Assembly: GCA_029861425.1 (NCBI GenBank) | Contig: JAOTZH010000011.1 | Span: 1-40,283 of the forward strand | Direction: 5' to 3' | Origin: Gemmatimonadota bacterium | GTDB taxonomy: Bacteria > Gemmatimonadota > Gemmatimonadetes > Palauibacterales > Palauibacteraceae | DNA: 40,283 nt | Program-made: the position numbers and the translations under genes | Shown: positions 1,595 through 32,623 of the stretch, piece after piece | Layout of the letters: each line of letters starts with the position of its first letter | Position numbering within the stretch: the first letter of the stretch is position 1 | Notes under the pieces: model-generated | Seen by the model: only the letters and a program-made list of their open reading frames with translations | Told to the model about the DNA's origin: nothing | Databases searched by the model: none

Positions 1595-2077
1595 ATGAAC
1601 AAACACTTCAGGAGGACGCTGTCGATGGTGCCCGGGTTCGTCGCGCTCGGGGCATGCGGCTCGGCGACCGGACCCGGCGGGGAGTGCGAGGTCTCGGGGG
1701 GCCTCGAGATCTGTGTCGACCGGGGCGAGTACGCGCCGGGAAACACGGTGCGGCTCACGCTGACCAACCGCGCGGGGGCCGTCACGTACGTCGACACCTG
1801 CGCGACGGTGTTCGTCGAGCGCACGACGCGAGCGGTATTCGGCTCGACATACAATCCGGAACGCCGCTGCGGGGCCGATCCCGCGCAGTCCGAGATCGTG
1901 GCGAACATGCACACGCTCGAGCCGGGGCAGGCGACGACCGAGTCTCTGCGCGTGACCCCGGGGATCCCGCAGGGGTTCTACCGTATCGACTACTGGATTC
2001 TGGACTCGGCGGGCGATCTCCAGTCGGAGGACCCGGTCAGCTCGTCCGAGTTCGACGTGTTCCCCTCCGCCGGCTGA
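1595..2077 (+). CDS. Small secreted lipoprotein, unknown function
   Basis: A 160-residue protein with a short basic N-terminus, a hydrophobic stretch and a lipobox ending ALGAC (Cys21), followed by GSATGPGG, a linker style common in Gemmatimonadota lipoproteins. The mature part (about 30-160) alternates hydrophobic and polar residues like a beta-sandwich and contains four cysteines (31, 40 and two further on), which could form disulfides. The pattern Y-x-P-G-N-x-V-R-L-T-L-T-N resembles small immunoglobulin-like or BsuPI-like domains; that is a weak fold-level resemblance, not an assignment. The ribosome-binding site is poor, but the lipobox position supports this ATG. Its last 88 bp overlap the 3' end of the convergent rfbD gene. 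Confidence 0.75.
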   Translation: MNKHFRRTLSMVPGFVALGACGSATGPGGECEVSGGLEICVDRGEYAPGNTVRLTLTNRAGAVTYVDTCATVFVERTTRAVFGSTYNPERRCGADPAQSEIVANMHTLEPGQATTESLRVTPGIPQGFYRIDYWILDSAGDLQSEDPVSSSEFDVFPSAG

Positions 2078-2997
2078 TCGATCTTGTCCGCACTCTCCCG
2101 GATGCATGCGGAGACGCCTTCCGTCCAATCCGGGAGGCGGAGCCCGGTCTCGGCCGCGAGTCTTTCGCTCGAGAGCCGGCTGTTCAGGGGCCGCGGTGCG
2201 GTGGATGGCCATTCGCTGGCGGGAATCGCGATGATATCGCGGACCCGGAGAGGCGCGGGGCCGCTCGCCGCGCTGGCGAGAATCTCTTCGGCGAACCCGT
2301 GCCACGACGTCTCTCCCCCGGGCGAGAGGTGATACAGGCCGCCGCGGCTTTCCAGCGCCGCCCGGAGTGACGCTCTGGTCCACGCCTCGGGGGGGCCAGC
2401 CATTGCCTCGAGGACCCGAACGGTCGCCCGGGCGATGTCCCGGCTCCACGTGGGTGCACCGAACTCGTCGGCGACGACGCGCAGCCTCTCCCGCTCGCGC
2501 ATGAGCCTCAGCATCGTGGTGAGGAAGTTTCCGGACCGGCTGCTGTAGACCCAACCGACCCGCAGCGTCAGGTACGCCGCGCCGGAGGAGGCGAGCGCCA
2601 CCTCGCCGAGCCGCTTCGTGCGACCGTAGACGCTGAGCGGGGCCGGGGGGTCGTCTTCCGTGTACGGCGTCGCCTGCGAGCCGTCGAACACGTAGTCGGT
2701 GGAGTAGTGCACGATCGCAATGCCACGACCCGCGGCGACCTCGCCGAGCACGTGCACGGCTCGTGCGTTCAGTGCGAGGGCGACATCTGGGTCGTCCTCG
2801 GCACGATCGACGGCTGTATAGGCAGCGGCGTTGATGATGAGGTCCGGTCGGGTCTCGCAGATGAACCGGGGGATCCGCTCGAGGTCGGCGAGGTCAAGCT
2901 CATCGCGGCCCGTCGCGACGACATCCACGCGGTCTTTCAACTCGCGACAAATCGCCGAACCGACCTGACCGGTCCGACCGGTGACGAGGACCTTCAT
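1990..2997 (-). CDS. rfbD: dTDP-4-dehydrorhamnose reductase
   Basis: Last enzyme of dTDP-L-rhamnose synthesis; reduces dTDP-4-dehydro-L-rhamnose with NAD(P)H in the cytosol. This is an extended SDR protein of 335 residues. It has the Rossmann motif VTGRTGQVGSA (5-15), the conserved STDYVFDG (99-106) and the catalytic Y124-x3-K128 in SVYGRTKRLGE. The start is the ATG at 2997, 5 bp after the rfbC stop; the longer open frame upstream lies inside rfbC and is not coding. The family usually has about 290-300 residues. The extra 30-odd residues after CIRES are low in structure and lie mostly where the frame runs antisense into the lipoprotein gene. The tail may reflect loss of an earlier stop codon. 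Last gene of the rfbBACD operon (also called rmlD). Confidence 0.95.
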   Translation of the reverse strand: MKVLVTGRTGQVGSAICRELKDRVDVVATGRDELDLADLERIPRFICETRPDLIINAAAYTAVDRAEDDPDVALALNARAVHVLGEVAAGRGIAIVHYSTDYVFDGSQATPYTEDDPPAPLSVYGRTKRLGEVALASSGAAYLTLRVGWVYSSRSGNFLTTMLRLMRERERLRVVADEFGAPTWSRDIARATVRVLEAMAGPPEAWTRASLRAALESRGGLYHLSPGGETSWHGFAEEILASAASGPAPLRVRDIIAIPASEWPSTAPRPLNSRLSSERLAAETGLRLPDWTEGVSACIRESADKIDQPAEGNTSNSDELTGSSDWRSPAESRIQ

Positions 2998-3002
2998 GAA
3001 CG

Positions 3003-3629
3003 TCAGCCTCCCGTGGCCGCGTCGAGACTGGCCAGCCAAGCGACGACCCGGTCGGCGCGCTGGGAGTCTTCCCATTCGGGGAGCTGCCCGGTCGCGGCCA
3101 GCTCCTCCAGCGTGAGGCCTTCCCGATCCTTCGGTGAGAGTACCGGAGCGTCGAGGGGCCAGTCGACTGCGAGCGAGGGGTCGTTCCATACGAGCGTGTG
3201 CTCGGCTCCCGCGTCGTAGGTGGCCGTGCAATGGTACAGGAGGTCGGCCTGGTCGCTCAGGGCGACGAACCCGTGCGCGAAGTCGGGCGGCACCCAGAGC
3301 TGAAGACCGTTCTCCCCGGACAGCTCGACGCCGAACCAGTGTCCGAAGGTCGGCGACCCGACCCGGATGTCGACGGCGACGTCGAACACGGTCCCTCGCG
3401 TGACGGAGACGAGCTTCCCCTGGGCTCCCGGGTTTTGAAAGTGCAGTCCGCGCAGGACTCCGCAGCGCGACGATGACCGGTTGGTCTGGACGAACCGCGC
3501 TTCGAAACCGAGGGCCCGATACCGCTCCTCATGGAAGTCCTCGACAAACGCCCCGCGTTCGTCGGTGTGGACGGTACGCTCGAACAGGATCGGTCCGGCG
3601 GGATCATCGATCTGGACGGCTTCGGGCAT
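3003..3629 (-). CDS. rfbC: dTDP-4-dehydrorhamnose 3,5-epimerase
   Basis: Epimerises C3 and C5 of dTDP-4-dehydro-6-deoxyglucose, the third step of the dTDP-L-rhamnose pathway. The 208-residue cupin-fold protein carries the conserved RGLHFQ with the catalytic histidine, the strand GTVFDVAVDIR and the PPDFAHGF segment. LLYHCTATYD contains the conserved tyrosine of the active site. Total length is somewhat above the family's usual 180-190 residues because of a C-terminal extension after about residue 180. The ATG at 3629 places the usual short lead before the first conserved strand. It lies 24 bp downstream of rfbA and 5 bp upstream of rfbD, so it is clearly one transcription unit (also called rmlC). 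Confidence 0.95.
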   Translation of the reverse strand: MPEAVQIDDPAGPILFERTVHTDERGAFVEDFHEERYRALGFEARFVQTNRSSSRCGVLRGLHFQNPGAQGKLVSVTRGTVFDVAVDIRVGSPTFGHWFGVELSGENGLQLWVPPDFAHGFVALSDQADLLYHCTATYDAGAEHTLVWNDPSLAVDWPLDAPVLSPKDREGLTLEELAATGQLPEWEDSQRADRVVAWLASLDAATGG

Positions 3630-3653
3630 GGTACGCGTTCTCTTCCGGCGTGA

Positions 3654-4565
3654 TCAGCCGAGGGCCGCTACGGGCGCGCGCTCCACTCCGCAGGCGCGCC
3701 TCGCGATCTCCTCGAGATAAGAGCCGTACGAGGTGTGCCGGATCGGATGCGCGATCCGGTCCACCTCATCGGCAGAAATGAACCCCATATGCAGGGCGAC
3801 CTCCTCGGGACAGGAGATCTTCAGCCCCTGCCTGGCTTCCACGGTGCAGATGAAGTGTGCGGCCTCGAGCATGGACTCGGGGGTCCCGGTGTCGAGCCAG
3901 GCGAACCCCCGGCCAAGCCGCTCGAGCCGAACCGCCCCCAGTTCGAGGTAGCGGCGGTTCAAGTCCGTGATCTCGAACTCACCCCGCTCCGACGGCGCGA
4001 GATCCGCGGCCAGGCGCGGCGCCGATTCATCGTAGAAGTACAGTCCGGTGACCGCGTAGTTGGACGGGGGGACCTCCGGCTTTTCCACCAGGCCGACGAC
4101 CCGACCGTCGGATTCGAACTCCACGACCCCGTAGCGTTCCGGGTCGTGCACGCGGTAGCCGAAGAGGGTGGCCCCATCCACGCGGGCCGCGGCCCCCTGG
4201 AGGATCTCCGGCAGGCCGTGCCCGTAGAAGATGTTGTCGCCCAGAACGAGCGCCGAGGGCGAGTCGTCAAGGAACTCCCGCCCGATGATGAGGGCCTGGG
4301 CGATTCCGTTCGGCTCCGGCTGGACCGCGAACCGCAGATCGATCCCCCACTGGCTCCCGTCCCCCAGCAGCCGCCGGAACGCGTCGGCGTCCTCGGGGGT
4401 CGTGATCACGAGCACGTCCTGGATGCCCGCGTGCATCAGGGTACAAAGGGGGTAGTAGACGAGCGGCTTGTCGTAGATGGGCAGCAGCTGTTTGCTCGCC
4501 GCCAACGTCATCGGGTGCAGGCGGGTGCCCGAGCCTCCCGCGAGGAGGATTCCGCGGCGCGTCAT
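3654..4565 (-). CDS. rfbA: Glucose-1-phosphate thymidylyltransferase
   Basis: Makes dTDP-glucose from dTTP and glucose-1-phosphate, the committing step of dTDP-rhamnose synthesis. The 303 residues match the family length. The nucleotide-binding signature [14 protein letters not shown] sits at 7-20. VLGDNIFYG (about 107-115) holds the metal-binding Asp110, and [20 protein letters not shown] is the standard sugar-binding region. The ATG at 4565 was chosen because it forms an ATGA overlap (4562-4565) with the rfbB stop and starts directly at the first beta strand. The 28 codons open upstream are within rfbB. Second gene of rfbBACD (also called rmlA). Confidence 0.96.
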
Positions 4566-5629
4566 GCCGGCACCTTCAGGCCGAGTCGCTCGCCTCCGTA
4601 GCGATTCTCCCGGATCGCGCTCCACCACGATTCGTTCGACAGATACCACTCGACGGTGCGGCGGATTCCGGTCTCGAAGGACTCGCGCGGCGTCCAGTCC
4701 AGCTCACGTTCGATCTTTCCGGAGTCGATCGCGTATCGCCGGTCGTGTGCCCGTCGATCGGACACGAACTCGATCTGCTCGCGATAGCTCGTCCCGAGGG
4801 GAGCCGGCCGCAGGCCGTCGAGGATATCACACACGTGGTGAACGATCTCGATGTTCTCCCGTTCCGCGGCGCCCCCGATGCAGTACGTCTCGCCGGGGAC
4901 GCCGCGCTCCAGGACCCGAAGCAGTGCCCCTACGTGGTCATCGACGAACAACCAGTCCCGCACCTGCCGTCCGTCTCCGTACACCGGGAGCGAGCGTCCC
5001 TCGAGCGCCCGCAGAATCATGTTGGGGATCAGCTTCTCGGGAAACTGAAAGGGGCCGTAGTTGTTCGAGCAGTTCGTCACGATGACCGGCAGGTCGTAGA
5101 CGCGCTCCCATACGCGTGCGAAGTGGTCCGCCGCCGCCTTGCTGGCGGAGTACGGGGAATTCGGATCGTAATGCGAGGTCTCCGAGAAACGACCCTCCGG
5201 TCCGAGCGATCCGTAGACTTCGTCCGTCGACACATGCAGGAAGCGGAATCGGGCCCTGTCACCCTCTTCCAGCCCCAGGTAGTACCGTCGGGCCTCGGAG
5301 AGCAGGGTGCAGGTGCCGACCACGTTGGACTGGACGAACACCAGGGGGCCGTCGATCGAGCGGTCCACGTGCGATTCGGCGGCCAGATGGATGACCGCGG
5401 ATGGCGCATGCCGCTCGAAGAGCGCGCGCAGCGCGGGGCCGTCGCACACGTCGACTTCCGCGAACTCGTATCGTGGCGAGTGGGCGACGGTCTCGAGCGA
5501 TGAGATGCTCGCGGCGTACGTGAGACAATCGACGTTCACGACACGCCGATCGGTCGCGTGTATCAGGTGGCGGACCAGGGCAGACCCGATGAAACCGGCG
5601 CCGCCGGTCACGAGAATGGGGCGCTCCAC
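4562..5629 (-). CDS. rfbB: dTDP-glucose 4,6-dehydratase
   Basis: NAD-dependent dehydratase that converts dTDP-glucose to dTDP-4-dehydro-6-deoxyglucose. This extended SDR protein of 355 residues has [10 protein letters not shown] (7-16), [11 protein letters not shown] (81-91), the catalytic T135-D136-E137 in STDEVYG, and Y160-x3-K164 in [12 protein letters not shown]. The start is GTG at 5629, directly behind a strong GGAGGAGA ribosome-binding site. The longer frame to the right is inside the neighbouring gene. First gene of the four-gene rhamnose operon, 26 bp after the stop of the DUF5916 gene, so read-through from the upstream glycan genes is likely. Confidence 0.96.
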
Positions 5630-5655
5630 GTATCTCCTCCGTTTGCGATCTTGAT

Positions 5656-8600
5656 TCAACGGAATGCCAGCCAGTAGCTGACCTTGGCGACGAAGACGTG
5701 CTGCCCGGGGTCGCCGATCGAACGGGCCAGAGCCCCTGCTCCCACCGGGTCCCCGTTGTCGTTCCAGTACCATCGATCCTGCTGCCAGATCAGATGGAGC
5801 GTGCTGCCCGGCAACCACTCCCACCGGAGAACCGCGTTGGTGCGAAACGAGCGCAGGTTGAAATCGGAGTTCCAGAGCGTGAACTGGTCTTCGCCGTCGG
5901 TCACCAGCTTCGAGCCGTCCTCGAGGGTCTCGATCGTCGTGCCGTCGGTGCCGTAGACCCGGAGTGTGCTCTCCCCCGCGCCCGTCAGCTCGCCGAAGTC
6001 GTGGTAGCGCCCCGACGACGCGAACGGCTCTCCGTAGAGATCGAGGGTCAGATCCGGCGTGATGGCGTAGCCGACCCTCAGCTGCGCGTAGATTTCACTC
6101 CGCTCGATCCCGCCGAAGACGTAGCGCTGTCCGAACGTCGATTCGGGGCCGCCCGCCAACATGTCGAAGTACTGTCTGGACGCATCCCCGATCGTGAAGC
6201 CGGGGCTGAGCGAGACATCGAGCTTCGGATCCGGCTTCATGGAAACCCTGGCGTTCACGGATGTCGACCAGCCTCCGATCGCGTCGAAGAACGTCGAGAC
6301 GTCGAGTCCCCACTGGGTTGGCTCGGCGTGCGAGCCCGAGAGCCCGAAGTCCATGGACACCGCGCGTGGCGTCCCCATCAGCGGGCCACCTCGTGTCAGG
6401 TCGTCGCTGAGCGCGGCGGTGTGAAGCTGCACCTGCCCATACGTGCGCCAGAAGTTCTTCCAGACGGCGTTCCCGAAGAGTCCGAACGACGTGCTGCGAC
6501 GGTCGCCGTCATGGTTCCAGCCGGCGTCCGCGAACGTGCCCACCGAGAACTGCCGGGCCGCGCCTCCCAGGCCGAGCCGACGATGTGTGAGCGAGCCCGC
6601 CACCCGGTGCTCGTCGGCCCGGCGCAGGATGCCCACGTCATTCAGCTCGAAGCCGGGAGACGTCGTCCCCGCCGACAACTCCCAGAGCCACGGTGCCCCC
6701 GCGACTTTCGCCAGCGAGATCCCGCCCGAGTATCCGGTGAGCGAGGTGGCCGACGGGTCGAGCGCGACGTGGCCGGCGTCGGGACGCTGGAAATAGCGCA
6801 CGCTCGACGCCTGGAGTCGCCCGAGTGCCGCGGAGTCGCCCGCGACGTGACTGAACCCCGCGTGCCCCCTGACCTCGTAGGTGCCGCGCCCCAGACGGAG
6901 GTTCCAGTCGCCACCCCCGGTGATCGCGGTCCTCGGCAGTAGGGGAGCGAGCGTCGGATCCAGGTCCCGCTGGATGCCCGTCAGCATGAACCCGGCGGTG
7001 GAACCGCCCCGGCCGACCTCCTTCTGTACTCGGGCGACGCCGAAGGCGGTGGCGGGCGAGATCGGCTCGGCCGGCAACGTGTCGCCGGGGACATCCAGAG
7101 GCAGGGTCTCGGCGGCTGTGACTGCCGCGAGCGCGCCGACCGACAGCCCCGACTCGAGCCGTCCTGTCAGCTTTCCGGCCCCGAGGATCGTCACCCCGCC
7201 GGGCGTTCCGGCAGCTGACGTCCCGCTGACTCCCCGGGGCAGCGATCCCACGCGCCGGGAGTAGAAGTAGTCGGGTCCGCCGCCTCGAAGCAGCTGGCTA
7301 CCCTCCTGAAAGAAAGGGCGCCGCTCGGGAAAGAAGGTCTCGAACGCCGTGAGGTTCACTTCGGCCGGATCGGCCTCGATCTGGCCGAAGTCCGGGTTGA
7401 AGGTCGCGTCCACCGTGAGGTTGGTCCCGAGACCCAGCTTCAGGTCCGCGCCGAACCGCATGTCACCATCGTCGAAGCCGCCCACGCCACCAGCCGCGCG
7501 GTCGAGCCGGGTCGTGGTTCCAAGCACGTACGGAGCGAACTCGATCCGGCGTCCCACGCTCCCGGTCTCGATTCCGACGAGCTCGCCGAAGCGAGACGCC
7601 CAGCCCGACTCATAGGTCGGCACCACAACCCAGTAGAGGCTGACAAAGCGAGACGGATTCTCACGCTTGATGTTCACGCCCCACACCTGGCGTCCTTCCT
7701 CGGGAAACCGCAGCTGCGAGAACGGGATCCGCAGCTCCGCCGTCCACCCGGCGGAGTCGGCGGCCGTCCTAGCTTCCCAGACCGGATCGAACGTGCGATC
7801 GGCCGGGTGCTCGCGGTCCGAAGGATGGTAGTAGTCAATGCGGGTGCCGGCCTCGGTCACGCCGAATGTGTACGCGGTTTGCAGGTCGTGGAAGGTGTCC
7901 AGGGAAAGCAGCAGACGGTCGTCGCTTCCGGGATCGTCGCGGCCTCGGACCTGGCCGGCCGGCCGGTCGTCCGCGGCCAGCATGCGCGCTCCGACGTACA
8001 GCGCGTCTTCGTCGTACAGGAAGGCCACCTGGGTCTGGACACGTGACCGGTAGCCCTGGTCGTGTCCCTTCTGAAGGAAGTCGTCGCGGAACGTCGCGGA
8101 GGCCCAGGCGGGGTCGTCCAGACTTCCGTCAAGCGATATCGAGGCCCCACGCCGCGATGCGCGCGCGGTCTTCGGGGCGACCCGGACGGTGCCCGCTGCG
8201 ATCGGCTCGCCGTCGGTCGTACAGGCGAGCTCTCGGGGGCTCGCCATGAGGAGCAGGTCCTCGCCTCCGACCCGCAGCGTGATCTCGTGCATCCGGCCAT
8301 CCCACAGAGACTCCGGGTGCTCGATATAGAAGGCGTGCGAACCGTTTCCCTTGCCCTTCTGGTCCAGCCCCTTTCGATACACGTCCGCGACGGCCGTCCC
8401 GATCCTCTGCCCGTTGTCAAAGATCTCGACCGAGAGAGGCAGATCGGGCCGCGTGTTATCCCACACCCAGCCGGCGCTGCGCCGACAGTCGCTCGCCTCG
8501 TGGTGCCCCTCGTACGCACCACGCCCATCGGCGCGGAGCTCGAAGGCCGCGATCGAGTCGCCATCGAGACCGAACCCGGCCAGCGTGCTGTCGCGGGCGG

Positions 8601-9075
8601 CGTCCGCCGTCCTGGGGTACGACGCCCGCGTGAAACCCGCTTCAGCGCGTGGATCGTCTTCGGCCGTTGCGTCCCCGTCCGTTTCCGGGGCACTCGCGGC
8701 GAGCGTCAGGATCGTCGGCATGGGTTCGGTGCGGGCAAGCCACGCGTCGCCGTATCCGAACCCCCGAACCTGCCTGAGCGTCGGGCGGGCGGAGTCGGCC
8801 GTGCCGAAATCGCCGACCCGGACGCGGTGTCGGGATCGCCAGCGCTCGACGTAGACCGGTAGCTGTCTCTCCAGGAGCTCGTGGAGGCGCCGGGCCTCTA
8901 CCACCGCCGCCTCGGACTCGTCGAGGATCGCGACCTGGACCCGGTACTGCGACGGCGCCTGCCCCACCGCAGGAGCCGCGACGCCCGCCACGGCGGCTAC
9001 GAACGCGAGGACGACGCCCGCGATCGACTCCGCTACCCGAGACCGCCGATGCACGCTGCGCCCCGCCGCGTTCAA
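5656..9075 (-). CDS. Outer-membrane DUF5916 protein with SPOR, beta-sandwich and CBM9-like domains
   Basis: A very large exported protein of 1139 residues. In order: a signal peptide (1-40, ending AVGQA); a SPOR-like domain (about 43-117; YRVQVAI ... HRVRVGDF ... GYGDAWLART), a fold that binds denuded peptidoglycan strands; a low-complexity acidic linker; and a beta-sandwich (about 195-285) with GWVWDNTRPD, VEIFDNGQRIG and DVYRKGL, of a kind I associate with glycosyltransferase-linked modules. These are followed by a CBM9-like domain from about 312 (ISLDGSLDDPAW) and a long beta-rich DUF5916 outer-membrane region with the family signature FFPERRPFFQEG. The start is TTG at 9075, overlapping the deacetylase stop as TTGA; a GTG at 9054 is the alternative. 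No substrate can be named. The position between deacetylase and rfb genes suggests a role at the cell surface with the glycan. Confidence 0.88.
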   Translation of the reverse strand: MNAAGRSVHRRSRVAESIAGVVLAFVAAVAGVAAPAVGQAPSQYRVQVAILDESEAAVVEARRLHELLERQLPVYVERWRSRHRVRVGDFGTADSARPTLRQVRGFGYGDAWLARTEPMPTILTLAASAPETDGDATAEDDPRAEAGFTRASYPRTADAARDSTLAGFGLDGDSIAAFELRADGRGAYEGHHEASDCRRSAGWVWDNTRPDLPLSVEIFDNGQRIGTAVADVYRKGLDQKGKGNGSHAFYIEHPESLWDGRMHEITLRVGGEDLLLMASPRELACTTDGEPIAAGTVRVAPKTARASRRGASISLDGSLDDPAWASATFRDDFLQKGHDQGYRSRVQTQVAFLYDEDALYVGARMLAADDRPAGQVRGRDDPGSDDRLLLSLDTFHDLQTAYTFGVTEAGTRIDYYHPSDREHPADRTFDPVWEARTAADSAGWTAELRIPFSQLRFPEEGRQVWGVNIKRENPSRFVSLYWVVVPTYESGWASRFGELVGIETGSVGRRIEFAPYVLGTTTRLDRAAGGVGGFDDGDMRFGADLKLGLGTNLTVDATFNPDFGQIEADPAEVNLTAFETFFPERRPFFQEGSQLLRGGGPDYFYSRRVGSLPRGVSGTSAAGTPGGVTILGAGKLTGRLESGLSVGALAAVTAAETLPLDVPGDTLPAEPISPATAFGVARVQKEVGRGGSTAGFMLTGIQRDLDPTLAPLLPRTAITGGGDWNLRLGRGTYEVRGHAGFSHVAGDSAALGRLQASSVRYFQRPDAGHVALDPSATSLTGYSGGISLAKVAGAPWLWELSAGTTSPGFELNDVGILRRADEHRVAGSLTHRRLGLGGAARQFSVGTFADAGWNHDGDRRSTSFGLFGNAVWKNFWRTYGQVQLHTAALSDDLTRGGPLMGTPRAVSMDFGLSGSHAEPTQWGLDVSTFFDAIGGWSTSVNARVSMKPDPKLDVSLSPGFTIGDASRQYFDMLAGGPESTFGQRYVFGGIERSEIYAQLRVGYAITPDLTLDLYGEPFASSGRYHDFGELTGAGESTLRVYGTDGTTIETLEDGSKLVTDGEDQFTLWNSDFNLRSFRTNAVLRWEWLPGSTLHLIWQQDRWYWNDNGDPVGAGALARSIGDPGQHVFVAKVSYWLAFR

Positions 9076-9827
9076 GCTTCTGCCCCTGCGAGCATGGCGG
9101 CCGGATCGGCGACCTCGTTCTGGCCCGTGCCGAAGCCCGCGAGGCCGACTCCGCAGGAGACCAGTCCTTCACGTATCCGCGGGTCCGTCAGCGTTCGGAC
9201 CTCGACCGATCGCTCCACACCGTAGTCGCTCTCGACATCGTGGGCCTCGCCGGGGTGGCAGCCGAGCTCGGTCCAGCCGTCGCCGAGCCGATCGATGATC
9301 TCGAGCAGATGCCCGGTCGTGATCAGCTCGCGAGCGGGCTGTCCGATCCCCGTTTGCCCGTAGAACTCGCCGCAGTAGCGAATCCGCGGTTCGAGCCCGC
9401 GTACGGGCACTCCGAGCCGCTCGCCCGCTTCGCGAACGATGCCCCGGACAGGCTCGGTCAGATGCACGTGCTGGTGCGAGTCCAGATGGGTCGGGTCAGC
9501 GCCGAGCAGACCGCGAAACAGGTCCAGCTGGGCCTCGACTTCGTTTCGGACCGACGCGGGGTCGGAAAGATCGACGACCTCGTACTTCGGCGTCCACTCG
9601 CCGCCGCGATAGACCCACTCGCCCAGGTCGATGTGAAGCCCCACCGAAAGCCCCGGATGTTCGGCGGAGATGGCTGCGGCAGACCCGGCCGACGGCTGCC
9701 TCACCATCAGGCTGGCGCTGGTGACGACGCCGTCAAGGAAGGAGCGCCGGATGCCCGCGTTCACGCCGGCGGACAAACCGAAGTCATCGGCGTTCACGAT
9801 CAGGGTTCTTCGTTTGGCGTGCGGCAC
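9072..9827 (-). CDS. YdjC/ChbG-family carbohydrate deacetylase
   Basis: Predicted metal-dependent deacetylase of N-acetylated sugars; ChbG itself deacetylates chitooligosaccharides. With the GTG start at 9827 the protein has 251 residues, typical for the family. LIVNADDFGLS (9-19) carries the two metal/catalytic aspartates, GLHIDLG (63-69) supplies a metal-ligand histidine, and DSHQHVH (116-122) and ELGCHPGEAHD are conserved. I prefer GTG 9827 because GAGG lies 8 nt upstream and the protein then begins just before the first strand. A GTG at 9917 would add 30 arginine-rich, non-conserved residues. There is no signal peptide, so it is cytosolic. The real substrate in this locus could be a precursor of the glycan made by the upstream genes. 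Confidence 0.88.
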   Translation of the reverse strand: MPHAKRRTLIVNADDFGLSAGVNAGIRRSFLDGVVTSASLMVRQPSAGSAAAISAEHPGLSVGLHIDLGEWVYRGGEWTPKYEVVDLSDPASVRNEVEAQLDLFRGLLGADPTHLDSHQHVHLTEPVRGIVREAGERLGVPVRGLEPRIRYCGEFYGQTGIGQPARELITTGHLLEIIDRLGDGWTELGCHPGEAHDVESDYGVERSVEVRTLTDPRIREGLVSCGVGLAGFGTGQNEVADPAAMLAGAEA

Positions 9828-10086
9828 GTGGGCGACCTCGGCGTTGCGAATCGAGTGACGACATAGCGCGTCGCGGGAGCGGGTCCGGCGAGTGTCGACG
9901 GGAGTCTCGGAGAGCACGGTTCGTTCCCCACGGATTCGTCCGGTCCGGCACCGGCCCGTCGAGCCGTCGCGAGGCGTCTGACCGCGTGGTTGAGGGGTTT
10001 TCTGGCATACGCCGTGTGGGGGTCGAGACCCTCATCGCCGGCCCGGTCCTGCCGCCTGTGTAGACTTTGCAGGCGGAGGGCAGTTT
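9828..10086. promoter_or_regulatory. 259-bp gap in the glycan cluster with a GC-rich hairpin
   Basis: This is the only long gap in the minus-strand glycan cluster. Behind the stop of the kinase gene lies an inverted repeat with arms CCGCCTG (10052-10058) and CAGGCGG (10070-10076) and an 11-nt loop. It has no T-tract, so it would be at best a weak or Rho-assisted terminator, or an mRNA processing site. The rest may carry a promoter for the deacetylase/DUF5916/rfb part. I recognise no clear -35/-10 elements. Confidence 0.35.
10052..10076 (-). terminator. Possible transcription terminator or attenuator hairpin
   Basis: A perfect 7-bp stem (CCGCCTG/CAGGCGG) with an 11-nt loop, starting about 10 bp downstream of the stop codon of the minus-strand kinase gene. 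The absence of a following U-run on the minus strand keeps this tentative. Confidence 0.3.
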
Positions 10087-11136
10087 CTAGCGGCGCGTCT
10101 CGCGAGACATGGCCGCGCCCGGACCCGCGAAGTCCGCTGCTGCCGCTTCGGCCTCCACGAGCCAGTCGCGGGCATGATGGCTGGGAGCGCGCCATCGTGA
10201 CGACCAGCCCAGCCACTGCACGGCGTTCACCATTCGGGCAGCCGCCAGTCCTCGAGGGCAGACGACTCTCGTTTCTGCGGCGCGGTCTCCGCGTGCGCCG
10301 CCCACAAACGCGGCTTCATACGCTTCGTAAAAGGCGGCACGCTCCTCGTCGTCCCAGTCACCGGTCGTGAGCGCCGCAAGATCGAGCAGGAGGGGCCCGA
10401 CTCCGATGGACTCCCAATCGACGGGGCGTACCCTCCAGCCGCCCGATCCTCGTTCGACGAGAATGTTCGACGGGTAGAACTCCCCGTGGACGAGCCCGGT
10501 CAGCGTCGAGGAAAGAGCGACCACTGCCTCCCGGTAGGCGGCCTCGATGGCCCGCAGGCGCTCGGCGGCCCTCGTTCGTCCACCCGCCGTCGCTCGCCGG
10601 AGGGCGCGGCGCCACCAGCGAAAGTGCAGAGCCTCCGACTGGCGCAGGAGCCGATCCTCCGCGCCGGCGGGCAGTGTCCGCGCGCGGCCCCACTCGTGGA
10701 ATCGGCCTAGCCAGCGCGCGGCCTCCCGCCACGGCCTTCGCTCGCCCCTCTCCGCCAGCGACCGACCCGCCACGGTTTCGAGAACCAGACGCTCCCGTCC
10801 CGTTCCCGCATGGAGGACCCCAAGGAACCGCGGGGTGCCGAAGCGGATCGGATCGAGAAGCGACCGATACGCCCAGCCTTCGCGAGCGTCGTCCCGGACG
10901 AGCCTCGGCCGCTCGAATCCTCCCGCGACGTGGGGGACGCGGGTTCCCTTCAGCACCAGGTCCAGACGCCGTCCGCCCGGGAGCTCGACGAGGGCGCGCT
11001 CGAGCGCGTGGGTGGAGCGATCCATCGATTCGCGGCAGTCGATTCCGAGGACCCGCTCGCCCAGCAGGTGCTCGAGCGCCCGAACATCGACGCGGACGGG
11101 GAGGTCCCCAACGGGACCCGACCCTGGCCGGATCAC
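10087..11136 (-). CDS. APH-family (aminoglycoside/choline kinase fold) phosphotransferase
   Basis: A 349-residue kinase-like protein. The catalytic loop LVHGEFYPSNIL (205-216) matches the APH HGD/E-x4-N pattern, with Asn214. VRPVDWESIGVGPLLLDLA (227-245) holds the metal-binding Asp230, equivalent to DFG. The N-lobe is poorly conserved but includes a beta strand with a plausible ATP-anchoring lysine in DLVLKGTR (59-66). The GTG start at 11136 forms a GTGA overlap with the upstream glycosyltransferase stop. Distant members act on sugars, choline, amino acids or antibiotics. Its place as last gene of an 11-gene glycan unit argues for phosphorylating a sugar, a glycan residue or a small headgroup, not for antibiotic resistance. 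Substrate unknown. Confidence 0.8.
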   Translation of the reverse strand: MIRPGSGPVGDLPVRVDVRALEHLLGERVLGIDCRESMDRSTHALERALVELPGGRRLDLVLKGTRVPHVAGGFERPRLVRDDAREGWAYRSLLDPIRFGTPRFLGVLHAGTGRERLVLETVAGRSLAERGERRPWREAARWLGRFHEWGRARTLPAGAEDRLLRQSEALHFRWWRRALRRATAGGRTRAAERLRAIEAAYREAVVALSSTLTGLVHGEFYPSNILVERGSGGWRVRPVDWESIGVGPLLLDLAALTTGDWDDEERAAFYEAYEAAFVGGARGDRAAETRVVCPRGLAAARMVNAVQWLGWSSRWRAPSHHARDWLVEAEAAAADFAGPGAAMSRETRR

Positions 11137-12275
11137 GCGACCCCCACCCGTTCCAGCAACCGGCCGACCACCACGCGCGCGTCGAGGTGAGCCTCGGCCA
11201 CATCGCGTGCCGCACGAGCATGCGCCGCGTAGTTCGCCTGGATCGCCTCGACTCCCGCGACCGCTTCGTCGATGTCCCGGAAAGCGATCAGTCCCTCGCC
11301 GGTGGGCAGGTGTCGACCGAACCCGGTGTCGAGGGCGAGGACCGGCTTGCCGGCGGCCAGGTAGCAGGCACTCCGGTCGCTGAACCAGCCGCAATCGGCT
11401 TCCACGTATCCCTCTTTTGCGACGCCGAGCTCCGCATACGACTCTGACACGAAGCGCCGGTATCGGTCGGGCGTCGACGAGACGTTCTCCGGATCGAGCA
11501 CGATCCAGCGGTTCGTTTCGAGGGCCGCGAGGTCGCTCGCCTCATCGGGATGGATGGCGAGCGCGAGCGCGAAGCGGGCGGACGTACGGCCGGGGAGCTC
11601 GAACAACGGGCGGAACGCGTGGGCCTTCTGGCCGTACCGACGTTCCCCGTCCGAGATCGATCCGTAGCCACGCCAATTGGCCACCGTGGTCCAGGCGTCG
11701 CCGGGATGGGTCTTCGAGACGGGCCATTGCTGGAGACAGACCGGCGGAAGCGTGGGGATCCACTCGCGGTCGAGCGTGGGGATGTCGCACGTGGGACGGC
11801 CGATGTCGAGCCCGACGCTCGCGTAGTGCGTGTGGCCGGCGAGCCCCATGTCGAGACCCTCCAGGCTCTGCCAGAGCTGGGTGAACGCGGGATCGAGGTC
11901 CACGTACACACGGGTGGGGATGCGGCCCAGCAGATCCGGATCGCGCAACGTGCCGGCGAGGTTGAGCAGCGCAGGGGCGCGCTCGATCAGGTCGACGAGA
12001 TCGGCGCGATCCATCCCGGACGTCCGTCCGGAGTCGTCGATCAGCGCGGAACGTCCCGAAAGCCCGGCGCGCTCGCAAACGCGAGAGAAATAGGCCCTGG
12101 CGGCCGGCGTGAAGTCCCGGGATGCCACGGCCTCGAGGAGTACCGGCTCGTACCCCAGGCCTCGCAGGCCGTGCACGTACTGGAGCACTGCCCACGTCGC
12201 GCCGCCATGTCCGGGGACTGCCCCGACCATGCCCGATACCACGACGGGGAGGCCCGGCTCGGGTGCGCGCCTCAT
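11133..12275 (-). CDS. GT-B-type glycosyltransferase, paralog A
   Basis: A 380-residue predicted cytosolic glycosyltransferase, one of four paralogs in the locus. The N-terminal half has GHGGATWAVLQYVHGLRGLG (about 20-39), an open-sheet nucleotide-binding-like start with no P-loop. The middle has YVDLDPAFTQLW and VANWRGYGSI. The C-terminal half has CGWFSDRSACYLAAGKPVL followed by DTGFG and PTGEGL, resembling the donor-binding half of CgeB/GT4-like enzymes. The ATG at 12275 shares one base with the preceding stop (TGATG). The stop overlaps the kinase gene by 4 bp. Donor and acceptor cannot be read from the sequence; the GT assignment rests on the fold-like pattern and the context. Confidence 0.75.
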   Translation of the reverse strand: MRRAPEPGLPVVVSGMVGAVPGHGGATWAVLQYVHGLRGLGYEPVLLEAVASRDFTPAARAYFSRVCERAGLSGRSALIDDSGRTSGMDRADLVDLIERAPALLNLAGTLRDPDLLGRIPTRVYVDLDPAFTQLWQSLEGLDMGLAGHTHYASVGLDIGRPTCDIPTLDREWIPTLPPVCLQQWPVSKTHPGDAWTTVANWRGYGSISDGERRYGQKAHAFRPLFELPGRTSARFALALAIHPDEASDLAALETNRWIVLDPENVSSTPDRYRRFVSESYAELGVAKEGYVEADCGWFSDRSACYLAAGKPVLALDTGFGRHLPTGEGLIAFRDIDEAVAGVEAIQANYAAHARAARDVAEAHLDARVVVGRLLERVGVA

Positions 12276-13465
12276 CACGGAGACACCCCCAGATCCTCGA
12301 GCATCGAACCGAGTACGCGATCGGAATCGAAGTATGTCTCGGCGAGTTGCCTCGCTGCGCTCGAGTGCCGCGCGTAGTCGTCCGCGATCGTCTCCACCGC
12401 GGCTACCGCGTCCGTCATGGTCTCGAACGCCAGGGCGCCCTCGCCCTCGGGGATCGAGTCGCGGAACCCGGTGTCCTGAACCACGACGGGCCGGCCCGCA
12501 GCCAGGTACCTGGCCGAACGGTCGCTGAACCACCCGCTCCGGGTCTCGACGTAGACACCCTGCGCGACGGAGAACTCCGCGTCCGAACACTCGACGTAGG
12601 TACGGAAGGCTTCGAGCGAACCGGCCCGCTCCGCCGGGTCTTCCAGATGCCACCCTGCGCTCTCGAGCAGGGTGCGGTCGTCCCCGTCGGCAGGGTGGAT
12701 GGCCAGAGCCGCCTCGAAGCAGTGGGCGGGCAGCAACGCCGGCAGAGCCCGGAAACGCCGCCATTCGTGCGCCTTGACCCCATAGTGGCGGTCGCCGTCC
12801 TCGATCGGGCCGAAGGCTCCGCGCCAGCTCGCCACGGTGGTGAACCGGACCCCGGCGACTTCCCTTTCGGCCGCGTCGGGGCCCGCGTGCGCTTCGCCCA
12901 CCTTCGTCGCGCGGTCGCCCCAGTCCTCGAGGACGACGGGTTGAAGCGTCGGTCGCCAACGGACGTCACCGGTGGGAAGATCGCACCCGGGGCGTCCGAC
13001 GTTGAGGCCGACGGTGTAATGATCCGTGTGGGCGGATACCTGATCGCCAAGGAGGCCGCGGGAGTCCCAGATCTGAGTGTACCCGGGGTCGAGGTCCACG
13101 TACGCGCGGTGTGGGATCCGGTGGAACCACTCGTCGGGCTCGAGGTGGCCGCTGATGTTCACCAGCAGCGCGCAGTCGTCCGCGAGTGCGTCCCACTCTT
13201 CCGGGTCGAGACCGCGCACGACCCCATCGACCACGAGGACGCTCCGGTCCCCGAGGGCGTTGGCCCGAGTCACCGCGTCGAAGAACTCCATGGCTCGTGG
13301 GTCCGGGCCCGCGATCCCATCCCCGCGGTCGGACGTCAGAGCTTCGACGAACCAGACGTCGAACCCGAGTCGTGCGAGCCCGCGAGCCCAGCTCATCCGG
13401 ACCCAGGCCTCCCCGCCGCTCCCCGGCTTATTCGCGAGGGCGCCCGCGACGATGACGGTCGTCAT
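12275..13465 (-). CDS. GT-B-type glycosyltransferase, paralog B
   Basis: A 396-residue paralog of the genes on both sides. Shared landmarks are GSGGEAWVRMSWARGLARLG near the N-terminus, YVDLDPGYTQIWD, VASWRGAFGPIEDGDRHYG in the middle, and SGWFSDRSARYLAAGRPVV then QDTGFRDSIPEGEG at the C-terminal donor-site region. It starts at ATG 13465, overlapping the stop of paralog C as ATGA. There is no signal peptide or membrane segment, so it is cytosolic. In this frame residues 8-27 read as a start of a Rossmann-like domain, consistent with a GT-B enzyme. Specific function unknown; retention of all landmarks suggests an active enzyme and not a decaying copy. Confidence 0.75.
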   Translation of the reverse strand: MTTVIVAGALANKPGSGGEAWVRMSWARGLARLGFDVWFVEALTSDRGDGIAGPDPRAMEFFDAVTRANALGDRSVLVVDGVVRGLDPEEWDALADDCALLVNISGHLEPDEWFHRIPHRAYVDLDPGYTQIWDSRGLLGDQVSAHTDHYTVGLNVGRPGCDLPTGDVRWRPTLQPVVLEDWGDRATKVGEAHAGPDAAEREVAGVRFTTVASWRGAFGPIEDGDRHYGVKAHEWRRFRALPALLPAHCFEAALAIHPADGDDRTLLESAGWHLEDPAERAGSLEAFRTYVECSDAEFSVAQGVYVETRSGWFSDRSARYLAAGRPVVVQDTGFRDSIPEGEGALAFETMTDAVAAVETIADDYARHSSAARQLAETYFDSDRVLGSMLEDLGVSP

Positions 13466-14670
13466 GCCGCACCCTCGACCGGGCAGGAGGCGCTTACGTC
13501 GGACACGGCTGTCGCGCGATCAGCCAGCCGTGCGAGGACACGATCCGAGTCGAAGTGCTCCGCGGCGACCGCGCGCGCCGCCTGCCGATGCCGACGAGGA
13601 TCGCTCTGCACCTCGGCGATCGCTGCGGCCGCCTCCTCGAGGCTCGTGAACCGGAGGAGCCCCTCGTCCCCGGGGTAGCGGTCGCTCCAACCGGTGTCCT
13701 GCGCGACGACCGGCCTGCCTGCCGCCAGATAGCACACGGACCGGTCGGAAAACCAACCGCTCGAGGTCTCGACGTACAGTCCCTTCGCCACCATCAACTC
13801 GCCCGACGAGCCCTGAATGAACTCACGGTACGCGACGGGATCGCCCGCGCTGGCGCGGGGATCGACCAACTCCCAGCCGGCGCCTACCAGTCGGTCACGG
13901 TCGGGCCGGTCGGTGTCGTCGATGTCGAGGGCCAGGCGAAACGGCTCGCCCGTGAGCGCGGGAAGGGGGACGAAGCGTCGGAACTGGTGGGCGCGCAGCC
14001 CATACTGCCGCCCCCTATGCTCGATCGGGTCGAATGGCCCCCGCCAGGTGCATATCGAGGTCCAGCCGAATCCGTCACCGGGGACGGGCACGAACGCGTC
14101 GAGGACCACTGGAGGTGGCGTCGGTATCCAGTCCAGACCGAGCGTCGGGATGAGACAGTCGCTGGCGCCGATCCGCTCGCCGACTGTCGCGTACGCGTCG
14201 TGACCGACGAACATCCGCGCCAACCCGAGATCCTCCCACATCTGCCCGAACCCCGGATCTATGTCGAGGAAGACCCGGCGCGTCGCCGCAGCGAGGATCT
14301 CCTCGTCGCGGAGGTATCCCATCACGTTGATGAAGAGGTCCGCCTCGCGGACGCGGTCGATCACATCCTGGCGCGCGAGTCCACGGACGGTCTGCGCCGC
14401 GGCCGGTCCGGGTCCGGACGCGCCCACGAGGAGCGAAGCGTGCTCCTCGATCCCGCCCAGTGCGCAGAATCGGTCGAACTCGTTCACCTCTGGCGAGTGG
14501 CGGCCGGTCGGCACTTGGTCGATCGAGTCGAGCCACAGCACGTCCCACCCGAGGCGCCTGAAGCCGAGGACGTACTGCAGAAACGCCCAGGCATGCCCGC
14601 CCCGGCCCGGACGGCGAGCCACCGCACCGGTGAGCACGACCGATCCGGCGGTCCGGCGCGACGACCTCAC
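13462..14670 (-). CDS. GT-B-type glycosyltransferase, paralog C
   Basis: A 402-residue third tandem paralog. Landmarks are GRGGHAWAFLQYVLGFRRLG, FLDIDPGFGQMWEDLG, CTWRGPFDPIEHRGRQYG, SGWFSDRSVCYLAAGRPVV and QDTGWSDRYPGDEG, aligned in order with paralogs A and B. The start is GTG 14670, which makes a GTGA overlap with the GT2 gene upstream. The open frame continues another 94 codons to the right but there it is antisense-like shadow of the GT2 gene. The first dozen residues (SSRRTAGS) are basic and not conserved. Cytosolic; sugar specificity unknown. Confidence 0.75.
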   Translation of the reverse strand: MRSSRRTAGSVVLTGAVARRPGRGGHAWAFLQYVLGFRRLGWDVLWLDSIDQVPTGRHSPEVNEFDRFCALGGIEEHASLLVGASGPGPAAAQTVRGLARQDVIDRVREADLFINVMGYLRDEEILAAATRRVFLDIDPGFGQMWEDLGLARMFVGHDAYATVGERIGASDCLIPTLGLDWIPTPPPVVLDAFVPVPGDGFGWTSICTWRGPFDPIEHRGRQYGLRAHQFRRFVPLPALTGEPFRLALDIDDTDRPDRDRLVGAGWELVDPRASAGDPVAYREFIQGSSGELMVAKGLYVETSSGWFSDRSVCYLAAGRPVVAQDTGWSDRYPGDEGLLRFTSLEEAAAAIAEVQSDPRRHRQAARAVAAEHFDSDRVLARLADRATAVSDVSASCPVEGAA

Positions 14671-16133
14671 GGAGTGGTCTCCGCGGCCGGCGCGAGGCGG
14701 TAGATGATGCACAACTCGTCCGCCAGCACCCGATCGTACCGACGGTCGAGGTGCGCCGAGAAGCGGCCATAGTGATCCAGCCACCAGAAGCTCGCCCGCG
14801 GGACCACGAGGTACCGGGCTCCGCGCGAGCGCTGGGCTTCGAGGTGGTCTATCGCGCCGTCGTCGTCGGCCGGGTATCCGTCGGGTGAGAGCGCCAGATC
14901 CGGAAAGTGCCAGCCCGTGCGCTGCGCCTCGTGCAGCAGCGACGGGTCCCATTTGTCGATGGCCGCCACGGACTCACCGGCGGGTACGACCCGCCGAATC
15001 CGACCGGCGACACCTGCCCGCTCGTCAGACCAGTCGTCCGTCGCCTCGAGTCTCGCGCGAAGCGCCTCGCCGAACCGCGTCCCTGTCAGCCGGGCGGCGG
15101 CCGTTCGGAGGACCGGACGGGCCGCTTCGTGGAAGCCGTGCTCGTCCGCCGCCGCCGCTCGATCCGCCGCCCCACCCAATGCGTCCCTCCGTGAGGCCGT
15201 GACCCTCCCGGCTCGAAGGACGATGCGGCACGCGAGATCCGGGAATCCGCGGGCGAGCGCGTCGCCGGCCGCCTCGAGGTGGCGAGCCGTGAGCGCCGCG
15301 TCGGCCCTGCGCTCGATCTCGTCGATGCCGGGCACCTGGCCTCGCGCCCGCTTCAGTGCCCGACGGACGACGAGTGTCTCGCTGGCCAGCCATGAAAGAC
15401 TCGACGCCCTTCGTGCGGAGGCGCCGCCCGCGTGGCAGCGGTATCGGGCGACGGGCCGGGCGCTGAACGCCACATCTCCCCGAAGCGACACGCGTAGCCA
15501 GGCGTCCCAATCTTCCGCGCGGTCTCCCAGATTCGTCGCGTACGGCCCTGCCCTCCTGTGGGCGTCGGCGCGCGTGACGGCGGTCGGAGCGCGGACATAG
15601 TTCGACAGCACGAGCTCTGAGAAGGCGTCGGCCCCCGGCTCGACGGTGTCCTGGCGGAACGGCGCTGACCAGGCGGGGCGGGGCATCCCGCGCCCGTCCA
15701 CGACCTCGACTGCGCCGTGTACGAGTACCACGTCCGGCTCCGTCTCGAGGACTTCGAGCTGGCGGCGGAGTCCGCCCGGCGTGTACGCATCGTCGTCATC
15801 GAGCCACGCCAGGTAGCGGCCGGTCGCCCCATCGAGACAGGCGTTCCGGTTCTCCGCGATCCCCACCCGGCGGTCGTGCCGGCGGTGGATGATGCGAGGG
15901 TCGGCGAATTCGCGGACGACGAGTCCGGTCTCGTCCCACGACGCGTCATCGAGAACGAGGATCTCGAGATCGTCAATGTCCTGACCCAAGACCGAGACGA
16001 GGGCGTCGCGCAAGAACGCCGCCCGGTTTCGCGTCGGGATGCAGACGGTGGCGAGCGGGCGCCGGGAGACGACCGCCGGTGCCGCCTGAACGTCGCGCGG
16101 GAGGGTGGGCGGAGCCACGCTAGTCGACGTCAT
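14667..16133 (-). CDS. Family 2 glycosyltransferase with a C-terminal accessory domain
   Basis: A 488-residue two-part protein. Residues about 26-240 form a GT-A/GT2 domain: ATVCIPTRNRAAFLRDALVS, the nucleotide-binding LVLDDASWDETG (60-70), GIAENRNACLDGATG, and the metal-binding acidic cluster WLDDDD (110-115). A helical stretch (about 245-365) follows. The C-terminal part (about 375-480) contains GWHFPDLALSPDGY, DHLEAQRSRGARYLVVP and FWWLDHYGRFSAHLDRRY. It matches the end of the GT-A protein at 17478-19469, so the two proteins share an accessory domain of unknown role. The ATG at 16133 overlaps the sulfotransferase stop by 14 bp. No membrane segments, hence cytosolic. Confidence 0.88.
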   Translation of the reverse strand: MTSTSVAPPTLPRDVQAAPAVVSRRPLATVCIPTRNRAAFLRDALVSVLGQDIDDLEILVLDDASWDETGLVVREFADPRIIHRRHDRRVGIAENRNACLDGATGRYLAWLDDDDAYTPGGLRRQLEVLETEPDVVLVHGAVEVVDGRGMPRPAWSAPFRQDTVEPGADAFSELVLSNYVRAPTAVTRADAHRRAGPYATNLGDRAEDWDAWLRVSLRGDVAFSARPVARYRCHAGGASARRASSLSWLASETLVVRRALKRARGQVPGIDEIERRADAALTARHLEAAGDALARGFPDLACRIVLRAGRVTASRRDALGGAADRAAAADEHGFHEAARPVLRTAAARLTGTRFGEALRARLEATDDWSDERAGVAGRIRRVVPAGESVAAIDKWDPSLLHEAQRTGWHFPDLALSPDGYPADDDGAIDHLEAQRSRGARYLVVPRASFWWLDHYGRFSAHLDRRYDRVLADELCIIYRLAPAAETTP

Positions 16134-17481
16134 ATCCGAAGGCCTCGAGCGCCTCACCGAACGCCGATCGGCAAACCGCGACGAGATCAGGGTCGAGCTC
16201 CTCGCGCCAGCGTCCGATCGAAGCGCGGGGATCCCGGCTCGTGCGGTGTCGCTCCATGTCGCCGCTCGCGCCCGAGGCGCGCGCGATCGAGTCGCGCACG
16301 GTGTGGGCGTCGTGTGCGAGGCCGATCCCCTCGTACAACGTCGCCAGGGTTCGCTCGGGCTCGACGACCAGATCCTCGTACCGGACGAGCTGAGCCCGAT
16401 CGGATCTCTCCTTCCAGTCGGCCAGGAGTGCTCGTGCCCCGCTCGCGAGGTTCCCCTCGATGAACCGGGCATCCGAGTCCACGTTCTCCCGCCCGAACGC
16501 GACGAAACCACGCTTGGCGTTGAAGGCCAGTATCGAGCAGACCATGTCCCTGAAGTCGCGCACGAGGACGATCTCCGAGCCCGACGGGTACAGCTCCCAC
16601 ATGAGCCGGGGGACGTGCCCGGGAGTCAGCTTCTCGGCGAAGCGGGTTGCCTCGGGCCGTGCGAGCCCCTCGGCCACGCGATCGTAGAACTCCTCGATGG
16701 ACTGGCGGGCCAGCCCGGCGAGCCGCACGGGATAGTCCCCTCGGAACCAGTCGCGAAGTCCCGGTTCGTCCGCGAGCGACTCCGCGTTGAACGGATGGTG
16801 CCCGATGGACCAGAGATCGTCGGGAAACGCGTCCGGGTGCGACGACTGGTGTGGATTCGCCGGATTCGACAGGACGCTCACCATGTGCAGCCAGTACGCC
16901 GCCGACCGGGTCTCGTAGGGGTACCCTCCGTGCACCGCGATCTCCGGGTGCTCGCGGAGGAGTCGCATGAGCCAGGTCGAGCCGGTTCGCCCGAGGGTCG
17001 TGAGCCCGAGCGGGTTCCAGCGGGTGTCGGGCGGGGCCGGCAGCGGCGTATGGGTCGCGCGGAGCGTCGCCAACGGCTCGACCGTGCCGTCGTCGAAAAC
17101 GACCCGAACCTGGATCTCGCACGGGCTCGGCAACCCGAGCATGCCGATCGAGGTGCGGAACCCACAGCGTAGCCGAACCGAGCCCTCGTGCCGGTCGGCG
17201 ACGTCTTCGCGCGACATGGCGAGGGGCGTCTTCCGGATCACGCGTCCCCGGTGGACGAAGTCGACGGCGACGGCCGGAACGTCGGTCCCGAGTGCCCACC
17301 CGGCGCACGGCAGGGCGGTCCCCCACCAGCTGTCGCCGGCCCGCGGTCGGTCGATCGACCCGCCCAGAAGACGGGAAGCATCAGCGGTCTGGGACTCCAC
17401 GGCTTCAATCGTGACGGCAGGCTCCGATGGGCGGAGTGCTTCGAGAGTGGTCTCCACCGCCGCCGAGCGCGCCGGGCTCAT
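16120..17481 (-). CDS. Sulfotransferase-family protein with N-terminal beta-sandwich domain
   Basis: A 453-residue protein. From about residue 155 it is a PAPS-dependent sulfotransferase: the 5'-phosphosulfate loop GLTTLGRTGSTWLMRLL (159-175) and the 3'-phosphate motif IVLVRDFRDMVCSILAF (304-320), with the expected arginine 308 and serine 316. The N-terminal 150 residues (WWGTALPCAGWALGTD, VDFVHRGRVIRKTPLAMSR, GFRTSIGMLGLP) look like a beta-sandwich. I have seen similar segments in front of other sugar-modifying enzymes; its role is unknown. The ATG at 17481 overlaps the upstream stop as ATGA. In this operon it would sulfate a sugar of the growing glycan. Cytosolic, as PAPS is. No PAPS synthesis genes are present in the window. 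Confidence 0.88.
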   Translation of the reverse strand: MSPARSAAVETTLEALRPSEPAVTIEAVESQTADASRLLGGSIDRPRAGDSWWGTALPCAGWALGTDVPAVAVDFVHRGRVIRKTPLAMSREDVADRHEGSVRLRCGFRTSIGMLGLPSPCEIQVRVVFDDGTVEPLATLRATHTPLPAPPDTRWNPLGLTTLGRTGSTWLMRLLREHPEIAVHGGYPYETRSAAYWLHMVSVLSNPANPHQSSHPDAFPDDLWSIGHHPFNAESLADEPGLRDWFRGDYPVRLAGLARQSIEEFYDRVAEGLARPEATRFAEKLTPGHVPRLMWELYPSGSEIVLVRDFRDMVCSILAFNAKRGFVAFGRENVDSDARFIEGNLASGARALLADWKERSDRAQLVRYEDLVVEPERTLATLYEGIGLAHDAHTVRDSIARASGASGDMERHRTSRDPRASIGRWREELDPDLVAVCRSAFGEALEAFGYDVD

Positions 17482-29056: not shown

Positions 29057-29064
29057 GCCGCTCG

Positions 29065-29116
29065 CGGTTCCCGGGAGCCGGCCGTCTCCTCCAGGCTACG
29101 GCTGCTCCCGGGACCG
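29065..29116. terminator. Probable bidirectional terminator between convergent genes
   Basis: Arms CGGTTCCCGGGAGC (29065-29078) and GCTCCCGGGACCG (29104-29116) pair over 13 bp with a one-base bulge and a 25-nt loop. The structure starts 8 bp after the oxidase stop and reaches into the last codons of the convergent phosphatidyltransferase gene. There is no T-tract on either side, as is common in GC-rich genomes. Confidence 0.5.
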
Positions 29117-31300: not shown

Positions 31301-31310
31301 GGGTGTACAC

Positions 31311-32582: not shown

Positions 32583-32623
32583 AAGCCCGGGTTCTCTTCT
32601 TTCTCCAGCAGCGAGATTTTCAG

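Follow-up and report, generated by a model that had tools for sequence, protein, structure and literature searches.

In the Gemmatimonadota, a cassette of tandem glycosyltransferase genes has a slot that is filled by a DUF5916 protein, a predicted outer-membrane barrel, in every case found, and two of these barrels carry an N-terminal extension made of a SPOR domain and an unnamed beta-sandwich, here called the GW domain. The protein analyzed here comes from a Gemmatimonadota bacterium (Palauibacteraceae), and its gene lies in positions 1-40,283 of contig JAOTZH010000011.1, the whole 40,283-nucleotide stretch that is called the window below. DUF5916 is an abundant family of large barrels without a described function, as far as the literature search reached. 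The constant occupancy of the slot offers a concrete hypothesis, open to testing, about some members of this family, and the finding gives a functional handle on both DUF5916 and the GW domain. The hypothesis, to which an even chance is given, is that the protein is an outer-membrane station (an exit port or a docking site) dedicated to this glycan, with the SPOR domain tying it to peptidoglycan. An earlier note on this DNA had read the protein as a single chain touching peptidoglycan, a carbohydrate and the outer membrane that anchors or passes the glycan; as a whole, this reading is partly supported.

The domain order of the protein is a signal peptide, SPOR, the GW beta-sandwich, a CBM9-like domain and the DUF5916 barrel, with the following coordinates:

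5656-9075, minus strand: SPOR-GW-CBM9-DUF5916 protein, 1139 amino acids (open reading frame with translation, and Pfam; like architecture in genome G310, loci L056/L102, at 46-48% identity)
8962-9075, minus strand: signal peptide, residues 1-38 (RRSR...GVVLAFVAAVAGVAAPAVGQA; read from the sequence)
8725-8955, minus strand: SPOR domain, residues 41-117 (Pfam, 24.7 bits; predicted fold and PDB match; residue comparison)
8527-8724, minus strand: linker, residues 118-183 (predicted disordered; predicted local distance difference test score, pLDDT, of 20-30)
8200-8526, minus strand: GW domain, residues 184-292, core about 190-269 (tblastn and profile homologues; all-beta prediction at low confidence)
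7576-8139, minus strand: CBM9-like domain, residues 313-500 (Pfam CBM9_1, isolated segment)
5665-7548, minus strand: DUF5916, predicted outer-membrane barrel, residues 510-1137 (Pfam, 166 bits)

The evidence that ties the barrel to a glycan comes from gene order. Among 394 genomes of the class, 35 have relatives of one of the tandem glycosyltransferases, GT_B, at E <= 1e-30. The complete tandem of GT_A, GT_B and GT_C occurs only in G000, G310, G320 and G063, and no further cassette was found in the families f6 (121 genomes) and f8 (21 genomes). In all four Gemmatimonadota cassettes, which represent three families, a CBM9-DUF5916 gene comes next after either an APH-like kinase or a YdjC-like deacetylase. 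The G310 contig is collinear over seven genes, running from a sulfotransferase (36% identity) through GT_A (51%), GT_B (49%), GT_C (51%), the kinase (34%) and YdjC (41%) to the SPOR-GW-CBM9-DUF5916 gene (48%). In G320 and G063, the CBM9-DUF5916 gene directly follows the kinase, with no YdjC between them. So far, SPOR and GW occur in both cassettes that have YdjC and in neither of those that lack it. As a control, 26 other DUF5916 neighborhoods (up to 19 kb) were searched for relatives of the cassette genes in the window, which are all that this comparison detects, and none had any. The proposed link to a glycan locus is therefore not incidental.

In the window, the barrel gene is flanked by the YdjC gene (9072-9917) and by rfbB/rmlB (open reading frame 4562-5824), just where the earlier note had placed it. 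Its TTG start shares the letters TTGA with the YdjC stop, and a ribosome-binding-like AGGGG stretch lies directly upstream at a suitable spacing. Promoter and terminator scans of the region gave nothing useful. Contig chimerism was considered and is not supported; the tetranucleotide profile of the cassette agrees with that of other contigs of the genome (0.95).

In the barrel tree, the window and G310 proteins make up a clade (97/84), and the barrels of the window's genus fall outside it. A tree of the CBM9 part groups G320 with the window (98/89), and G310 adjoins this group with uncertain support. The G063 barrel (locus L101, 13415-14944) belongs to another DUF5916 subfamily while occupying the same slot after the kinase, and may be a non-orthologous replacement. 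The sharing of one slot by two DUF5916 subfamilies suggests that a barrel of this kind is required by the cassette.

The GT_B alignment, used to scan 84,980 species genomes, also located the cassette in Actinomycetota, in Planctomycetota (including Singulisphaera acidiphila) and in one Verrucomicrobia metagenome-assembled genome. Many of the cassettes outside the Gemmatimonadota also have the kinase and YdjC. No DUF5916 gene was found beside the cassettes in Actinomycetota, Planctomycetota and Verrucomicrobiota, and no match to DUF5916 turned up anywhere in nine of these genomes, although no control genome matched either and this absence is not proof. On the simplest view, the Gemmatimonadota added the barrel to a cassette that is older or spreads widely; the cassettes without a barrel fit an outer-membrane add-on. 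A broader and more tentative proposal, judged somewhat less than evenly likely, is that DUF5916 barrels can be stations for specific glycans. A cassette shared with three phyla would have received one in the Gemmatimonadota. In the window protein, SPOR would then link the glycan pathway physically to peptidoglycan, and GW would link it to a recognition module that belongs to the pathway itself.

The full architecture is rare. DUF5916 proteins are usually built from a signal peptide, CBM9 and a barrel, as had been supposed: 57 of 60 relatives have a DUF5916 match, the best matches to the whole protein begin at about residue 260-310 and cover only about residues 300-1137, and none extends over the N terminus. 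When the N-terminal part was searched in the 394 class genomes, it returned one full counterpart, from another family (G310, L056/L102), and one SPOR-only DUF5916 fusion (G326, L057). The survey was confined to the Gemmatimonadota, where 395 genomes of the phylum, searched with a profile, yielded no additional SPOR-DUF5916 case; a 925-amino-acid SPOR hit in G379 was rejected, being no DUF5916 protein. No relatives of the N-terminal part were found among viral contigs. The combination of SPOR, GW, CBM9 and DUF5916 was thus found solely in the window and in G310, both times in this cassette. Neither outcome that the earlier note had named as refuting its reading, a missing SPOR fold or a broad spread of the architecture away from glycan genes, was observed. 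The fusion in L057 (5004-8144) has the order SPOR-CBM9-DUF5916, and its neighbors include an aminotransferase-like gene, an oxidoreductase and a permease. Its barrel lies far from the others in the barrel tree, so fusion of SPOR to DUF5916 probably happened more than once.

The presence of a SPOR-like domain, as claimed in the earlier note, is borne out by family, fold and residue comparisons. Pfam places SPOR at residues 41-111 (E 2.9e-5), with 24.7 bits against a gathering score of 21. A two-sequence AlphaFold2 job covering residues 39-298 predicts, with modest confidence, the order strand-helix-strand-strand-helix-strand at residues 41-117, a ribonucleoprotein-like (beta-alpha-beta-beta-alpha-beta) fold, and in a separate full-length job this fold spans residues 41-118 with a pLDDT of 69-79. 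In a Foldseek search, the best PDB matches were the SPOR domains of CwlC and RlpA, with target template-modeling (TM) scores of 0.74-0.78, and DedD came fourth as a weak match. In RlpA, residues Q270, R302, R309 and R311 touch denuded peptidoglycan (PMC6895207). Q47, R84 and R86 of the window SPOR align with RlpA Q270, R309 and R311 (HRVRVGDF versus HRVRLGPI). The window domain has the conserved glutamine and basic patch that contact denuded glycan in SPOR domains, and it may bind peptidoglycan. The SPOR domain of the G326 fusion (L057) scores 45.7 bits in Pfam and retains the peptidoglycan-contact residues.

The window protein shares the SPOR fold, the glutamine and the RVR ligand residues with known SPOR proteins such as RlpA, DamX, FtsN and CwlC (PF05036). 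However, its SPOR domain stands N-terminal to a predicted outer-membrane barrel, not on an enzyme, a lipoprotein or an inner-membrane division protein, and no division genes lie near the barrel gene. The linker behind SPOR is longer and repeat-rich in the G310 protein as compared with that of the window.

The stretch containing GWVWDN and VEIFDNGQ had been taken for a second sandwich domain, and it is indeed predicted to be a separate domain, all-beta and about 80-110 residues long (about 184-292; AlphaFold2, low to modest confidence). It has no Pfam match. Relatives, with a best E of 6e-11, were identified by tblastn in 98 plasmid records, chiefly from Sinorhizobium and other alphaproteobacteria. 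Ten plasmid loci were examined, and eight of them lie within or next to glycosyltransferase or rfb genes; the remaining two are an S53 peptidase of Curtobacterium and an unannotated record. A conservative profile, which had no match in reversed sequences, also places GW ahead of GT2 domains in two actinobacterial copies of the cassette, L106 (E 2e-6) and L107 (E 0.006), and in L099 (E 1e-5). An iterated profile, which is a weaker step, extends the set to the window sulfotransferase and, in L103, to an AlgX-like protein in which GW precedes the AlgX-like domain.

GW domains are mostly found in genes of glycan loci. The domain connects barrels, glycosyltransferases and stand-alone glycan-locus proteins across phyla, and it merits a family model. 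Proteins from rhizobial and Azospirillum glycan clusters have the domain at 30-40% identity and are likewise encoded beside glycosyltransferases, but there it is stand-alone or fused to enzymes, whereas the window GW is carried on a predicted outer-membrane barrel. In the window sulfotransferase, an apparent GW-like module of its own (about 17101-17310) lies ahead of the catalytic domain and is seen with the iterated profile only, not with the conservative one. On the Curtobacterium plasmid (L142, 1766-4366), an S53 family peptidase that lies in no glycan locus ends with three GW-like repeats.

The C-terminal 830 residues are those of an ordinary DUF5916 protein (PF19313, with CBM9_1, PF06452), at 45-49% identity to members of the same class. 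The window protein differs in having SPOR and GW in front, in sitting in a glycan cassette and in forming its own clade with G310. CBM9_1 at residues 315-467 scores 20.7 bits in the full chain, slightly below the cut-off of 23.4, and 25.7 bits in the isolated segment, which is over it; all eight related segments tested match CBM9_1, and a xylanase CBM9 gave a weak PDB profile match covering about 60 residues. DUF5916 matches residues 510-1137 at 166.4 bits (cut-off 22.6) over model positions 4-564 of 572. The full-length AlphaFold2 model has a pLDDT of 20-30 over most of the barrel. Neither the whole chain nor the barrel or glycosyltransferase profile gave a usable match when searched against PDB sequences, and no solved barrel was matched. 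Most Gemmatimonadota carry DUF5916 barrels, usually several per genome. The open-access literature searched contained no paper mentioning DUF5916, and searches on CBM9 barrels, SPOR barrels and the surface glycans of Gemmatimonadota turned up nothing directly relevant.

The glycan genes of the window are as follows:

1990-5824, minus strand: dTDP-rhamnose set downstream of the barrel, with rmlB (open reading frame 4562-5824), rmlA (3654-4649), rmlC (3003-3629) and rmlD (open reading frame 1990-3231) (Pfam and NCBIfam; frames checked)
9072-9917, minus strand: YdjC/ChbG-like deacetylase (Pfam YdjC, 154 bits; orthologue at the same place in G310, 41%)
10087-11394, minus strand: APH-like kinase, gene shorter than the open reading frame (34% to L056 6420-7442, Pfam APH; same place in G320 and G063)
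11133-12959, minus strand: tandem glycosyltransferase paralogue GT_C, gene shorter than the open reading frame (51% to the G310 orthologue)
12275-13465, minus strand: tandem glycosyltransferase paralogue GT_B (48-52% to orthologues in G310, G063 and G320; also in three other phyla)
13462-14952, minus strand: tandem glycosyltransferase paralogue GT_A, Glyco_trans_1_2 (Pfam; 51% to G310)
14667-16511, minus strand: GT2 glycosyltransferase (Pfam)
16120-17760, minus strand: sulfotransferase with the GW-like module (Pfam Sulfotransfer_3)
19466-20833, minus strand: GT4 glycosyltransferase (Pfam)
20821-22077, minus strand: fourth GT_A/B/C paralogue
21999-23819, minus strand: MsbA/ChvA-like ABC exporter (Pfam and NCBIfam; kept in related loci)
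23816-26395, minus strand: GH2-like TIM barrel fused to a GT2 glycosyltransferase (Pfam; kept in many Gemmatimonadota loci)

We infer the localization of the barrel protein, its binding of sugar and peptidoglycan, and the export or anchoring step as follows. The glycosyltransferases, the kinase and the sulfotransferase would assemble sugars in the cytoplasm, the YdjC deacetylase would trim the assembled sugars, and the MsbA-like exporter would carry the glycan over the inner membrane. The DUF5916 barrel would then act as the exit port or docking station in the outer membrane. Its N-terminal modules would lie in the periplasm, where SPOR would grip denuded glycan strands of the peptidoglycan and the GW and CBM9-like modules would meet the outgoing glycan, or the enzymes carrying it.

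Polysaccharide export barrels such as PgaA, BcsC and AlgK-AlgE combine an outer-membrane barrel with periplasmic glycan-handling domains. The proposed logic would be alike in that a barrel is encoded with glycosyltransferases and a deacetylase, a comparison that concerns the mode of action only. Unlike these systems, the window protein has no TPR domains (none in a Pfam scan), shows no sequence relation to them and is built from unrelated parts, and its deacetylase is YdjC-like and apparently cytoplasmic.

Several observations weigh against a dedicated station that is tied to peptidoglycan. The cassette barrels of G320 and G063, two of the four, are without SPOR and GW, which makes the SPOR/GW extension an optional, non-essential elaboration. 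The same two barrels speak against the strong form of the earlier claim, in which one chain touches peptidoglycan, carbohydrate and outer membrane. Both of their genes are truncated by the end of a contig, either past CBM9 or inside the barrel; the Gemmatimonadota cassette sample is four, and the neighborhood control has the narrow reach described above. The G310 SPOR is without the conserved glutamine and the RVR pair, and in L056 it scores merely 13.4 bits in Pfam. The YdjC protein has no obvious signal peptide and is therefore probably cytoplasmic, unlike PgaB of the poly-N-acetylglucosamine (PNAG) system. The G326 protein, a second fusion of SPOR with DUF5916, has no glycan neighbors on its 8.9-kb contig.

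The protein could be an anchor and not a port, that is, an OmpA-like tether between the outer membrane and peptidoglycan, with GW and CBM9 keeping the finished glycan on the envelope while other proteins export it. The intact ligand residues of the window SPOR, the long disordered linker and the sugar-type accessory modules are consistent with an anchor, as is the lack of any indication of an open channel in the sequence. However, with two cassette barrels having no SPOR and one having a degenerate SPOR, tethering cannot be what all barrels in the slot have in common, and DUF5916 barrels are much larger than the 8-strand OmpA type. The anchor is judged rather unlikely. It is distinctly unlikely that SPOR and GW are decorations, with a SPOR-like fold reused for contacts to glycan or protein instead of peptidoglycan and a barrel that works with CBM9 alone, as in its relatives. 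The loss of the glutamine and RVR residues in G310, the two cassette barrels missing both modules and the GW modules on glycosyltransferases of the same cassette elsewhere all argue for decorations, but the peptidoglycan-contact residues are kept in the window and G326 copies. A generic DUF5916 porin or uptake protein that came to lie beside glycan genes by chance or operon hitchhiking is already disfavored and very unlikely. Several DUF5916 copies are indeed present in most Gemmatimonadota genomes, and a glycan cassette is usually not close to them, but for about ten copies in a few thousand genes the probability of lying next to the cassette by chance would be well under 1% per genome, and the same slot is occupied in four of four cassettes from three families by two DUF5916 subfamilies.

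Some minor features of the locus were also noted. GT_A, GT_B, GT_C and the fourth paralogue carry no NCBIfam name, and the tandem set with the kinase and YdjC recurs in four phyla. A frameshift suspected in rmlD was rejected, the gene being intact in a single frame. The pair formed by the GH2-TIM/GT2 fusion and the MsbA/ChvA-like exporter is present in many Gemmatimonadota loci and in one Deltaproteobacteria metagenome-assembled genome (L109). The flank at 27584-39384 is unrelated to the cassette and encodes an FAD-linked oxidase, a beta-lactamase-like serine hydrolase, an M19 dipeptidase, a 2-hydroxyacid dehydrogenase, a BNR-repeat protein and a cytochrome c/beta-propeller protein.

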